From Bacillus sp. FJAT-28004 (lineage in GTDB: Bacteria > Bacillota > Bacilli > Paenibacillales > Paenibacillaceae), in assembly GCF_001280845.1 (NCBI RefSeq), contig NZ_LGHP01000002.1, positions 52,552 to 116,551 of the forward strand: a DNA stretch of 64,000 nt, in the 5' to 3' direction. This document shows, one piece after another, positions 2,482 to 45,270 of this stretch (positions are counted from its first letter, which is position 1; the number at the start of each line of letters is the position of its first letter). The notes beneath the pieces are model-generated. The model was not told where the DNA came from, searched no databases, and saw nothing but the letters and a program-made list of their open reading frames with translations. A program made the position numbers and the translations under genes.

Positions 2482-2526
2482 CAATGCTTACGAAGCAAGT
2501 TTTACATTGTTAAACTTTTGAGGAGA
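2482..2526 (+). repeat. Degenerate copy of the SD-linked hairpin repeat (family A)
   Basis: AATGCTTACGAAGCAAGTTT and the following ACATTGTTAAACTTTTGAGGAG align with the better copies at 15581-15694 and 43917-43999. Shared features are GCTTACGAAG, GTTTT, AAAC and an ending that supplies the ribosome binding site (GAGGAG) of the next gene, here ruvC. The hairpin arms are eroded compared with the other copies. Confidence 0.6.
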
Positions 2527-15580: not shown

Positions 15581-15694
15581 AAGCTTACGAAGTGGTTTTG
15601 CATTCGCAAAACCTAAGTACATGCTTACGAAGTATTCGCAAAACCTAAGTATAAGCTTACGAAGTGGTTTTGCATTCGCAAAACCTTTAGGAGG
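15581..15694 (+). repeat. Three tandem copies of the SD-linked hairpin repeat (family A)
   Basis: Copy 1 (15581-15618) and copy 3 (15651-15694) contain GCTTACGAAGT then GGTTTTGC-ATTC-GCAAAACC, a perfect 8-bp stem with 4-nt loop. Copy 2 (15619-15650) lacks the left arm GGTTTTGC but keeps the rest. Copies are joined by TAAGT. Copy 3 runs straight into TTTAGGAGG, the ribosome binding site of the next gene. The block fills nearly the whole secF/CDF gap. No coding frame is evident. Confidence 0.9.
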
Positions 15695-15699
15695 TACAA

Positions 15700-16617
15700 A
15701 TGTCAACCACACAGCGATATGCAAAAGCAGAGTCCGCAAGTTGGGCCGGCTTATGGGGAAACATGCTGCTGGCTCTATTTAAAGGTGTGATAGGATGGTT
15801 GTCAGGAAGCAAAGCGCTGCTCGCGGATGCATTTCGAACAGCTGCTGAGGTCGCTGCTGGGGTTGCTGCCCTGTCGGGTTTAAGGGCAAGCCGGCAGAAG
15901 AAAATGGCGAATCCAATTTCTAAAGCGGCACCTATGGATGCAAGAGGAGAGACGGCAACAACGATACTGTTGTCTGTCGTCCTTCTCATCATTGGGCTCG
16001 AAATAGGCATATCTGCCATAAGAGATCTTTCTGATCGTGTAACAAGTGCTCCGCATTGGAGCGCAGCTGTGGCAATTGCGCTCGCTCTCATCGTTCAACA
16101 GCTGTTTTTCCCATCGAAGGATCGAATGACAGGACTTTATTGTTCGGTCGCGGCCTTAGTGGGAGCAAGCGGAGCGATTATTGGTAAAATGCTAAATGTT
16201 CCGGTTCTCTATTATTTTGATCCGGCGGCAGCGATTGTTATAGCGGTAATTGTCATCGTAAACGGCTACAGAATGGCCACTGTCTCCATGCGCAAAGATG
16301 ACCAAAGTAATGCTTCAGAGGAAAATCCTGATGAGCTGATGCAGCTCATTCAACGTGTTGACGGAGTAATTACCGTACAAACATTGCGAGCGAAAGAGCA
16401 TGGTCATTATGTCATAGCAGAAATGGTCATTAGTGTTAATCCACGCATTTCTGTTCTTGAGGGTCAAGAGATTGCCAAAAGGGTAAAGCAGCTCGTTATG
16501 AAACGTTTTATACATGTCACTGATGTATCGATTTTCGTTGAGCCTTATGATCCTGGTTATCCTTATAAGTCTAATCATGATCCGAATCAGGAGCAGATGC
16601 CGACACTGCTGCAATAA
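15700..16617 (+). CDS. Cation diffusion facilitator (CDF) family protein, divergent metal site
   Basis: 305 residues: about six hydrophobic helices, then a cytoplasmic C-terminal domain (LIQRVDGVITVQTLRAKEHGHYVIAEM) of CDF type. CDF proteins export zinc, manganese or iron. The usual helix-2 site (His or Asp, three residues, Asp) reads ADAFRTAAE here, Arg and Glu in place of the ligands; helix 5 keeps YFDPAAA. Metal specificity is unclear and transport itself may be altered. The start has TTTAGGAGG supplied by the upstream repeat. Confidence 0.8.
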   Translation: MSTTQRYAKAESASWAGLWGNMLLALFKGVIGWLSGSKALLADAFRTAAEVAAGVAALSGLRASRQKKMANPISKAAPMDARGETATTILLSVVLLIIGLEIGISAIRDLSDRVTSAPHWSAAVAIALALIVQQLFFPSKDRMTGLYCSVAALVGASGAIIGKMLNVPVLYYFDPAAAIVIAVIVIVNGYRMATVSMRKDDQSNASEENPDELMQLIQRVDGVITVQTLRAKEHGHYVIAEMVISVNPRISVLEGQEIAKRVKQLVMKRFIHVTDVSIFVEPYDPGYPYKSNHDPNQEQMPTLLQ

Positions 16618-42981: not shown

Positions 42982-43914
42982 ATGGCGTACAAGCCGGAAT
43001 TGTTAGCTACCGCTGCATCTATAGAGGAGCTGGAAAGGCTCATAGCAGCAGGCGCGGATGCTTTTGTCATTGGCGAAGCACGCTACGGTATGCGATTAGC
43101 AGGAGAGTTTAGCAAGGAAATGATAGCACAGGCAGTAAAGCTTGCGAAGCCTAAGGGTGTGAAAATATATGCGGCCCTTAACAACCTTATGGATAATGAG
43201 GCAGCTGATTCATTAAATGATTATGTATCCTGGCTCGCTGAAGCAGGCGTAGATGCACTAGTATTCGGTGATCCTGCTGTCTTAATGGCTGCTAGATTGC
43301 ATGCTCCTGGCATGGCTCTGCACTGGAATGCCGAAATGACCTCAACGAATTATGTTACAGCTAATTATTGGGGCCGCAGAGGCGCCACTAGATATGTACT
43401 TGCACGCGAGCTCAACATGGAGCAAGTTTGCGATACAACGGCAAGTACAGAGCTTGAAGTTCAAGTACAGGTTCATGGCATGACTAATATTTATCATTCC
43501 AAGCGTTCGCTTGTAGATAACTATATGGAACATCAGTCGGAGCCGGATCGGCTTCCGGAGAAGGACAAAGATCGTGGTCTTTATGTGATGGAAGCGGAGC
43601 GCCAAGATGAGCGTTATCCGATCTACGAAGATGCTAACGGCACTCATATTATGAGCTCGGATGATGTTTGTATGGTAGAGAACCTTCATGAGCTACTTGA
43701 GGCTAAAGTAAGCAGTTTGAAGATTGAGGGACTAATGAAATCTACCGAGTACAACGAAATCGTTGTTCGTTCATATCGACAGGCGATCGATGCTTATATG
43801 GCTGACCCAGAGGGTTACATGTTCCAAGAGGAATGGCTGGACGCTATCAAACAAGTTCAGAACCCGCAGCGTGAGCTGAGTTATGGCTTCTTTTTTAAGG
43901 AGCAAGTCTATTAA
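42982..43914 (+). CDS. yrrN: U32-family protein YrrN (TrhP1), tRNA 5-hydroxyuridine formation
   Basis: 310 residues, TIM-barrel-like U32 family without the C-terminal barrel extension (LIAAGADAFVIGEARYGMRL; NNLMDNEAADSL; LHWNAEMTSTN). The B. subtilis pair YrrN/YrrO hydroxylates U34 of tRNA. It lies next to its partner; GGAGGAGC is 8 bases upstream. In B. subtilis trmR (yrrM) is placed between mltG and yrrN, but here only 54 bases separate them. The true co-substrate is prephenate in E. coli TrhP; not testable here. Confidence 0.85.
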   Translation: MAYKPELLATAASIEELERLIAAGADAFVIGEARYGMRLAGEFSKEMIAQAVKLAKPKGVKIYAALNNLMDNEAADSLNDYVSWLAEAGVDALVFGDPAVLMAARLHAPGMALHWNAEMTSTNYVTANYWGRRGATRYVLARELNMEQVCDTTASTELEVQVQVHGMTNIYHSKRSLVDNYMEHQSEPDRLPEKDKDRGLYVMEAERQDERYPIYEDANGTHIMSSDDVCMVENLHELLEAKVSSLKIEGLMKSTEYNEIVVRSYRQAIDAYMADPEGYMFQEEWLDAIKQVQNPQRELSYGFFFKEQVY

Positions 43915-43916
43915 TA

Positions 43917-43999
43917 AGGAAATGCTTACGAAGTAGTTTTGCTTCGCAAAACCAAAGGAAATGCTTACGAAGTAGTTTTGCTTCGCAAAACTTAGGAGG
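43917..43999 (+). repeat. Two tandem copies of the SD-linked hairpin repeat (family A)
   Basis: AAGGAAATGCTTACGAAGTA then GTTTTGC-TTC-GCAAAAC occur twice in a row, nearly identical, joined by CAAAGGAA. The second runs into TTAGGAGG, the ribosome binding site of the next gene. They fill the whole gap between the two U32 genes. CGAAG can also pair with the downstream CTTCG, an alternative to the GTTTTGC/GCAAAAC hairpin. Confidence 0.9.
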
Positions 44000-44007
44000 T
44001 ACACATA

Positions 44008-45270
44008 GTGACAACAATGGAGAAGACGACACCTCGCTATCAAGGCAAACGCCATCGACTGGATAGACCGGAGCTGCTCGCACCAGCCGGGAATTTGGAA
44101 AAGCTGAAATTTGCGATTCATTATGGAGCTGATGCTGTTTATATCGGTGGTCAGAAGTACGGCTTGCGCTCCAATGCGGATAATTTCAGCTTTGAAGAAA
44201 TGAAAGAAGGCGTCCAGTTTGCAAACCGTTATGGTGCGAAGGTATTTGTCGCTACGAATATATACGCGCACAATGAGGATGTAGAAGGTCTCGAGGACTA
44301 TTTGCGTAATTTAGAAGAAGCAGGAATCTCAGCAATCATAGCCGCAGATCCTGCCATTATCGAAACAGCGCAGCGGGTAGCTCCAAAGCTTGAGGTTCAT
44401 TTGAGCACGCAGCAATCAACGCTTAACTGGCAGGCCGTGCAGTTCTGGAAGGAAGAAGGCTTGCCGCGGGTTGTGTTAGCCCGTGAAACGAGCTTTAAAG
44501 ACATTGCAGAAATCAAAAAAAATGTTGATATTGAGATCGAAGCGTTTATTCATGGTGCGATGTGTTCATCGTTCTCTGGACGCTGCGTATTGTCAAATCA
44601 TTTTACTGACCGCGACTCCAATCGTGGAGGCTGCTGTCAGTCATGTCGCTGGAAATATGATTTGTTTGTCGATGATATGCCAATGTACCCGGAAGAAGAA
44701 GATAAGTTCACAATGGGCTCTAAAGATCTCTGCATGATCGAATATTTGCCTGAGCTTATCGAAGTTGGCGTCGACAGCTTCAAAATTGAAGGACGAATGA
44801 AAAGCATACACTATGTGGCGACGGTCGTTAACGTTTATCGTCAAGCTATCGATGCATACTTCGCTGATCCTGAGCATTTTGAGCTGAAGCAGGAATGGGT
44901 GGATGAGATAAATAAGGCTGCGAATCGTCCGCTTAATACTGGATTTTTCCTCGATACGCCGGGAGCAGAGGATCATATTTATGAGCCTGAGGAAAAAGCA
45001 GCGCCTTATGATTTTGCTGGGGTTGTTGTAGATTATAATGAGAAAACGGGTTTTGCGATCGTGCAGCAGCGCAATCATTTTAAACTCGGACAAGAAATTG
45101 AATTTGTTGGTCCCAAGGGCACATTCTTTAAGCAAACCGTAACCGAAATTACGGATACAGAAGGTAATGCACTTGAGGCGGCGCGCCATCCTTTACAGCA
45201 TATTCGCATTCGTACACTAAAGCCAGTTAAAGCGATGGACATGATGAGAAAAAAGATCGAGAAAAAGTAA
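44008..45270 (+). CDS. yrrO: U32-family protein YrrO (TrhP2), tRNA 5-hydroxyuridine formation
   Basis: 420 residues, GTG start with TTAGGAGG provided by the repeat. Core motif is EAFIHGAMCSSFSGRCVLSN, followed by a Cys-rich stretch (NRGGCCQSCRWKYDL). These cysteines fit the iron-sulfur ligands proposed for the family. The C-terminal barrel (residues about 330-415) is present, unlike YrrN. The pair works together in wobble-uridine hydroxylation in B. subtilis. Terminator downstream. Confidence 0.87.
   Translation: MTTMEKTTPRYQGKRHRLDRPELLAPAGNLEKLKFAIHYGADAVYIGGQKYGLRSNADNFSFEEMKEGVQFANRYGAKVFVATNIYAHNEDVEGLEDYLRNLEEAGISAIIAADPAIIETAQRVAPKLEVHLSTQQSTLNWQAVQFWKEEGLPRVVLARETSFKDIAEIKKNVDIEIEAFIHGAMCSSFSGRCVLSNHFTDRDSNRGGCCQSCRWKYDLFVDDMPMYPEEEDKFTMGSKDLCMIEYLPELIEVGVDSFKIEGRMKSIHYVATVVNVYRQAIDAYFADPEHFELKQEWVDEINKAANRPLNTGFFLDTPGAEDHIYEPEEKAAPYDFAGVVVDYNEKTGFAIVQQRNHFKLGQEIEFVGPKGTFFKQTVTEITDTEGNALEAARHPLQHIRIRTLKPVKAMDMMRKKIEKK

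Follow-up and report, generated by a model that had tools for sequence, protein, structure and literature searches.

Unrelated genes of Paenibacillales carry, directly upstream of their SD, a short unit composed of a conserved word and a small hairpin. Judging from comparative sequence analysis, we assign a probability of about 0.5 to its interpretation as a family of short leader modules acting in cis, which are attached to the SD and probably serve as 5' barrier or insulator. Within this proposal, an action at the level of RNA as a module of the SD appears very probable, and the assignment of a barrier or insulator function as its main action, which we base on analogy, would be tentative. 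Direct support extends to the position, orientation and spacing of the unit, its covarying stem and its conserved word, and equally to the concerted evolution of arrays, their occurrence at loci common to relatives and their turnover. A repeat family so closely tied to one translation signal, at a narrow distance and with a covarying stem, would mean that a large order of soil bacteria tunes expression at a new level.

Architecture of the unit

The analysis concerns a stretch of 64,000 nucleotides of DNA from Bacillus sp. FJAT-28004 (the window), for which an earlier note had described copies at 15581-15694, 43917-43999 and 2482-2526. With rechecked coordinates, we find units at all three places. 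Each consists of the word GCTTACGAAG, a few bases and a hairpin of 7-9 bp, usually located 2-3 nt before AGGAGG. The consensus reads (N)TGCTTACGAAG, mostly followed by 1-4 nt and then by a hairpin with XXTTTGC/GCAAAXX arms, whose loop in the common unit encompasses 3-5 nt; the period of the unit is 37-42 bp. The features of the three loci are:

2486..2517, + strand: single, degenerate unit of ruvC; motif 2486-2495, arms 2497-2505 / 2509-2517
2520..2525, + strand: SD of ruvC (GAGGAG), start TTG at 2534; this SD is also found in relatives without unit
15583..15613, + strand: unit 1 of the CDF array; motif 15583-15592, arms 15594-15601 / 15606-15613
15623..15645, + strand: unit 2 of the CDF array, truncated; motif, then loop and 3' arm, 5' arm missing
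15655..15685, + strand: terminal unit of the CDF array; motif 15655-15664, arms 15666-15673 / 15678-15685
15689..15694, + strand: SD of the CDF transporter gene (AGGAGG), start ATG at 15700
43924..43952, + strand: unit 1 of the yrrO array; motif 43924-43933, arms 43936-43942 / 43946-43952
43963..43992, + strand: terminal unit of the yrrO array; motif 43963-43972, arms 43974-43981 / 43985-43992
43994..43999, + strand: SD of the U32/TrhP-type gene, yrrO (AGGAGG), start GTG at 44008

The three copies that had been counted in the CDF array are present, but the middle one is unable to form a hairpin for lack of its 5' arm. The copy upstream of ruvC is indeed degenerate, with 8 of 9 stem pairs formed, and the motif of the first yrrO unit lies 9 nt after the stop codon (43912-43914) of the upstream gene. 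RuvC and the CDF-family transporter score above NCBIfam cut-offs, in agreement with the names they had been given, whereas the name yrrO is not backed in this way, as the best NCBIfam match of this U32/TrhP-type protein falls below its cut-off.

The stem covaries. Among 126 distinct rows of an alignment fitted to the covariance model described below, 7 of 8 pairs have changed on both sides (five of them in at least five rows), amounting to 70 double-sided changes compared to 13.6 in shuffles, and the covariation score of 0.225 drops to 0.065 or less once slid. The loop-closing pair is broken in 18 of 123 rows. An unfitted alignment (A3) contains double-sided changes at 5 of 8 pairs, with a number of pair types no better than in shuffles (160/500). 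Compensatory exchanges are also manifested at the CDF locus alone, where 31 units from 13 of 26 orthologous loci display the replacements GC/AT/TA, TA/GC and TA/CG, and the CDF copies of one relative contain a AGGTTTCAC/GTGAAACCT stem that is changed in every copy found. The hairpin can grow greatly with word and SD persisting, as seen in the CDF ortholog of another relative (L333) with a stem of about 21 bp and in the sister genomes G060 and G063, where the model matches reach lengths of 60-68 nt in some cases.

No covariation was detected for a mini-hairpin within the word, whose observed pairing was reached in 258 of 500 shuffles. This mini-hairpin is thus rejected and the word is kept as sequence. 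Two further readings of the word were discarded. Pairing with 16S rRNA reaches 9 of 10 pairs at L411, a locus of 3558 bases that matches 16S partially at two places (9-546 and 567-754 of the model), as do 238 of 300 shuffled words with 9 or 10 pairs. A short upstream open frame (ATG CTT ACG AAG) would require a strict second base of its putative ATG, which is T in 99 of 121 lettered rows, and a period divisible by three; with unit periods between 37 and 42 bp, no common frame is kept. In the window, GCTTACGAAGY with up to one mismatch occurs 9 times compared to 2.2 expected (9 or more in none of 100 shuffles), and the 6 exact matches all reside at the CDF, yrrO and ruvC places. In the whole genome, GCTTACGAAG is found 87 times and the reversed-word control 43 times, which attributes about half of the matches to the bare word to background. 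The special feature is the word together with the hairpin rather than the bare word.

Distribution and attachment to the SD

For a search of the whole genome and of other Paenibacillus genomes, which the earlier note had proposed along with a covariance model, we built such a model (R1) from 19 units. In the genome of the window it provides 121 matches at E≤10, and the 100 matches at E≤0.1 are organized in 47 arrays of 1-7 detected units. The unit is thus far wider in its occurrence than had been claimed, and the notion of a widespread hairpin at the starts of unrelated genes is borne out: R1 detects it in all 37 sampled genomes of the genus including that of the window, and in 4 of 23 sampled genomes outside the genus (both at E≤1e-3, with 1 to 97 matches per carrier genome), and across the order in 226 of 296 genomes at E≤1e-5. 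The genome G025 of the same genus contains a single weak match that is lost at E≤1e-5. A sample of the phylum with stricter filters (E≤1e-4) yielded 6 of 398 genomes, all from the family of the window. A pattern scan of named genomes returned at least 118 stretches, and the 80 matches listed belong to Paenibacillus except for five records (two of Gordonibacillus and one each of a 'Bacillus', a Paenibacillaceae isolate and a Bacilli MAG). We reject an origin from phages or plasmids, since the respective collections are nearly empty of the unit, with one stretch in viral contigs, none in the phage collection and one partial match in the plasmid set, in a Paenibacillus record.

The position of the unit is tied to the beginnings of unrelated genes. 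By reading each of the 47 arrays in the genome of the window, we found 46 to lead to an SD and a start codon, two of them with weak SDs (L047, L251), as had been proposed for the last copy at the three window loci. The exception is L060 (G000 C14:277942-277979), whose downstream gene was perhaps lost. For arrays from many species, we defined a test that demands a start codon 4-31 nt on, an SD of at least 5/6 and a frame of at least 35 codons. It is passed by 160 of 191 arrays but by only 1 of 188 in the opposite direction (three skipped due to short flanks) and by 206 of 8800 random points, revealing the preference for start codons whose absence would have spoken against the element. A slightly different version of the test is failed by 32 arrays, which we classified by reading. 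An SD is present in 17 of them, with spacing, strength, a short frame or an intervening copy being wrong, two are cut by the end of the locus, one is a chance word (L049), and behind 12 there is no SD, five of which are part of the composite RNA described below and seven lack a visible SD (L060, L155, L170, L196, L202, L219, L233).

The earlier note had suggested to tabulate the distance to the next start codon. The spacing between arm and SD is narrow, with AGGAGG 2-3 nt behind the 3' arm in 139 of the 158 arrays with an SD of at least 5/6, while the SD precedes the start by a variable 4-13 nt. For the 160 arrays that had a start and whose upstream sequence was long enough, a simple frame finder located a codirectional open frame that terminates no more than 250 nt upstream in 122 cases (no more than 40 nt in 54), an opposite frame in 19 and neither in 19. 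Arrays are thus found both behind promoters and in operon-like places, which implies that the unit goes with the SD and not with the promoter.

The 171 proteins encoded downstream of arrays fall into 124 clusters. Thirty-six of them, from the genome of the window, were scanned against NCBIfam, where, in a subset of 30, 7 found no match at E≤1e-20. Besides ruvC and the CDF transporter, the assignments above cut-off comprise prs, dnaB, mnmG, L25/ctc, rnhA, murB, pgeF, fxsA, a TIGR00266 protein, a C-terminal processing protease, gltX, an RNase J family protein, araA, rapZ, L27 (rpmA), an S1-domain protein and map. The unit thereby precedes genes such as dnaB, prs, mnmG, gltX, murB, rpmA and that of an RNase J, and in a record of P. 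amylolyticus it is found upstream of rpmJ. By inspection, we see no functional theme among the identified downstream genes. The RNase J family protein, whose gene carries an array (L240), is cut by the end of the locus and has RnjA as best match, below the RnjA cut-off; enzymes of this type are 5'-3' exonucleases, whose progress would be stopped by a leader hairpin.

Related genomes

Comparison of 24 arrays from the genome of the window shows that copies within an array evolve in concert. Units of the same array share an identity of 0.91, and 31 of 65 pairs are identical over 20 nt, compared to an identity of 0.657 and none of 276 pairs for units of different arrays. In L371, internal copies end with TTTAAG-CTTAT and the terminal copy with TTTAAGGAGG. 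As internal tails can resemble the start of an SD, we infer that local tandem duplication enlarges the arrays and that one of its breakpoints lies within the SD, which would leave the full SD to the last copy only.

At orthologous loci, presence and copy number of the unit vary. At the ruvC locus, the genome of the window carries one unit, G028, with 99% identical RuvC, carries none and others contain one or three. The absence from such a near relative indicates that the unit is not essential, and sister species with 0, 1 or 3 units upstream of ruvC offer a ready natural comparison. By reading, the unit is found in 6 of 30 yrrO loci shown, and it is present in 15 of 26 orthologous CDF loci shown. 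The sequence TTTGAGGAG is contained in the ruvC leaders of all ten closest genomes shown, irrespective of the unit, and in the yrrO locus of G011, which is devoid of a unit, TATTAGGAGGTGCACA is found right where the upstream gene ends. Since unit-free relatives already contain the SD and the sequence following it, the SD is native, and the suggestion that the element brings its own translation signal is not supported. In six syntenic windows, exact-word arrays were found at the ruvC, CDF and yrrO loci and at one location private to G020. Other matches of the detector contain 1-2 mismatches, and two with one mismatch (G000 41565, without SD; G028 minus strand 37968, with an SD by a loose test) are taken as chance.

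The earlier note had also considered the element as mobile or self-duplicating. Tandem multiplication is supported by our data, and signs of mobility are limited to one relative, in which unrelated loci contain near-identical copies. In this genome (G022), units from 12 fetched loci share an identity of 0.946, compared to 0.52 for the 5' flanks, which include further copies of the unit, and 0.38 for the 3' flanks. An identical 39-mer is found at six of the 12 loci in unrelated flanks, demonstrating that dispersal happens, and new loci might be reached by some copying process.

The CDF loci of G008, G031 and G001 (L334, L335, L336) contain, instead of the unit, an unrelated hairpin GTGGAA..TTCCAC right before GCTGGAGG. 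A second dispersed hairpin family was rejected, as the respective 14-mer occurs at most twice per genome and in 7 of 60 genomes.

Possible action and relation to known elements

In the proposed mechanism, the module, consisting of the word GCUUACGAAG and a small hairpin whose base as a rule is located 2-3 nt before AGGAGG, would act in the mRNA. The hairpin beside an SD-bound 30S subunit would form a 5' barrier against 5'-3' decay of the cistron by RNase J1, and it would insulate the initiation site from upstream structure and ribosomes. We favour this reading because Bacillus leaders that occlude the 5' end and/or contain a strong SD are described to stabilise whole mRNAs (PMC3997798). It counts against this reading that a ten-mer would not have to be conserved for a plain barrier. 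The conserved word instead suggests that it is read by some factor, by which it is better explained than by a barrier, and a model invoking a regulator thus stays alive. A dedicated RNA-binding protein or small RNA would in this case recognise GCUUACGAAG and the hairpin and set the translation of a large post-transcriptional regulon, with tandem copies, of which an array contains 1 to 7 detected units, tuning the affinity. This is consistent with a word that is conserved as sequence next to a varying stem and with the recurrence of both in a structured RNA devoid of an SD, but neither the lack of a common function among the genes nor the wide differences in copy load between carrier genomes would be expected from it, and we consider it unlikely. 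To a similar degree doubtful is the extended proposal of a hidden RNA-binding factor that throughout the order reads GCUUACGAAG and the hairpin, located at a constant distance from the SD in dozens of unrelated mRNAs, with the module copying itself from SD to SD. If true, genes would gain, lose and multiply control by a factor-read module within a genus.

Somewhat less probable again is a selfish dispersed repeat of little or no function, resembling REP, MITE or IS200 ends, which would have been placed at SDs by insertion or recombination at AGGAGG. Such origin could account for the near-identical units in the dissimilar flanks of G022 and for the patchy presence between close relatives, and the sequence of TTAC, GAAG and hairpin resembles the left end of IS608 with its TTAC, AAAG and hairpin. 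Conversely, copies away from SDs are few, the arrays of the six syntenic windows occupy the same three loci except for the private one in G020, and at the CDF locus pairing of the stem is retained by compensatory change. Moreover, the Y1 transposase domain PF01797 was detected (E≤1e-5) in 4 of 37 genomes of the genus, all of which carry R1 matches, and not in that of the window, and we thus discarded a resident RAYT/IS200 transposase. An SD-sequestering switch, such as a thermometer or riboswitch-like element with perhaps two exclusive folds, appears highly improbable, despite a hairpin that almost touches the SD. The SD is located outside both stems, and its unpaired probability of 0.426 in native leaders exceeds the value of 0.374 obtained with shuffled elements (p=2e-5; 150/156 leaders); deletion of the element in silico results in 0.414, which is not significantly different from native (p=0.13). 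Sequestration is thus not seen. A rival CGAAG/CUUCG stem, preferred by the lone yrrO unit, is available to only a third of units (33 of 93 with CGAAG that also contain CTTCG). The Rfam 5' UTR thermometer that matches the last CDF unit does so at chance level (13.2 bits, cut-off 88, E 4.5). Folding z-scores amount to -2.52 for the CDF array, -0.66 for the yrrO array and +1.43 for ruvC, the latter two leaders thus folding no better than shuffles, and to -1.11 and -1.34 for two lone units. The best fold of both arrays joins arms from different copies. For the barrier or insulator proposed above, the greater openness of the SD relative to shuffled elements counts in favour; the non-significant effect of deletion counts against it, as do these folds of single leaders, which lend it little support.

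In line with the statement of the earlier note that no named family has this sequence, we found none in Rfam at cut-off and none in the open PMC literature. A scan of the window at the Rfam cut-off detected only RF02514, described below, and no match to the unit, and the matches obtained at E≤5 for the two tandem arrays, yrrO and CDF, are all far below cut-off. Searches of open PMC literature by titles and abstract starts returned nothing on the element, and papers containing the letters GCTTACGAAG bear unrelated titles among the matches listed. Dispersed bacterial repeats are mostly viewed as extragenic debris or as elements of mRNA ends. REP and BIME sequences with their RAYT transposases contain a short conserved word 5' of a palindrome and are dispersed and tandem. 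The unit shares the short word 5' of an imperfect palindrome but its place is 5' of SDs and not, as for REP, extragenic in general, and PF01797 was not found in the genome of the window. MIRUs are oriented tandem repeats, often between operon genes, which are longer and whose small open frames overlap neighbouring stop and start codons. The unit is likewise tandem and oriented towards the downstream gene, but unlike MIRUs has a fixed geometry of hairpin and SD.

The nearest published idea in the available texts are the TAACTGA direct repeats of marine Beggiatoaceae, Cyanobacteria and Bacteroidetes, which were suggested as post-transcriptional binding sites (MacGregor 2015, PMC4679880). Both share mostly oriented tandem copies just 5' of start codons (in one species for TAACTGA), and the text of that study likewise describes no gene pattern and no evident mobility mechanism (PMC4679880). 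Unlike our ten-mer with its covarying hairpin, which in a different phylum is joined to a strong SD, TAACTGA is a heptamer described without predicted secondary structure, which overlaps the expected place of the SD in genes that mostly lack an obvious one (PMC4679880). With its different word and covarying hairpin, the unit does not belong to this family. The ermC, cryIIIA and aprE leaders also contain a stem-loop close to a strong SD but, as portrayed in the available text, are single leaders at mRNA 5' ends and neither a dispersed family with a conserved word nor, as is the unit, located between operon genes (PMC3997798). A hairpin following a stop codon can also limit re-initiation, and in arrays that closely follow a gene the unit resembles such ribosome termination structures (PMC7518266). 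These are described as being defined by the stop codon together with the energy of folding and as depleted within operons (PMC7518266), whereas the unit is defined by sequence and by the distance to the next SD. In an account of the 5' UTRs of one Paenibacillus, these were compared with Rfam over 100 bp, and the available text does not contain the word 'repeat' (PMC5670726).

The composite RNA mentioned above (L137:5483, L152:1578, L173:3486, L229:1080, L230:1487, L285:813 and L382-L385) spans about 120-140 nt by eye. It contains the same word and hairpin followed by AGGTCGCTCATC, another hairpin that might form and a T-rich tail, behind which there is no SD. Found in several species, twice in some genomes, it is uncommon (exact pattern in 2 of 296 genomes), and five loci scanned gave no Rfam match at cut-off. 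It may be a small RNA or a riboswitch-like element. At L170:6740 and L353:1011, a common stretch TGGAGGAGCGATAGCG(T/C)..., which is also contained in L092 and L215, is located downstream of the unit or a unit-like word and looks like another repeated element. Finally, the minus strand of the window at 58749-59046 matches Rfam RF02514 (5_ureB_sRNA) with 95.3 bits, which is unexpected in this genome, since the family is known from Helicobacter.
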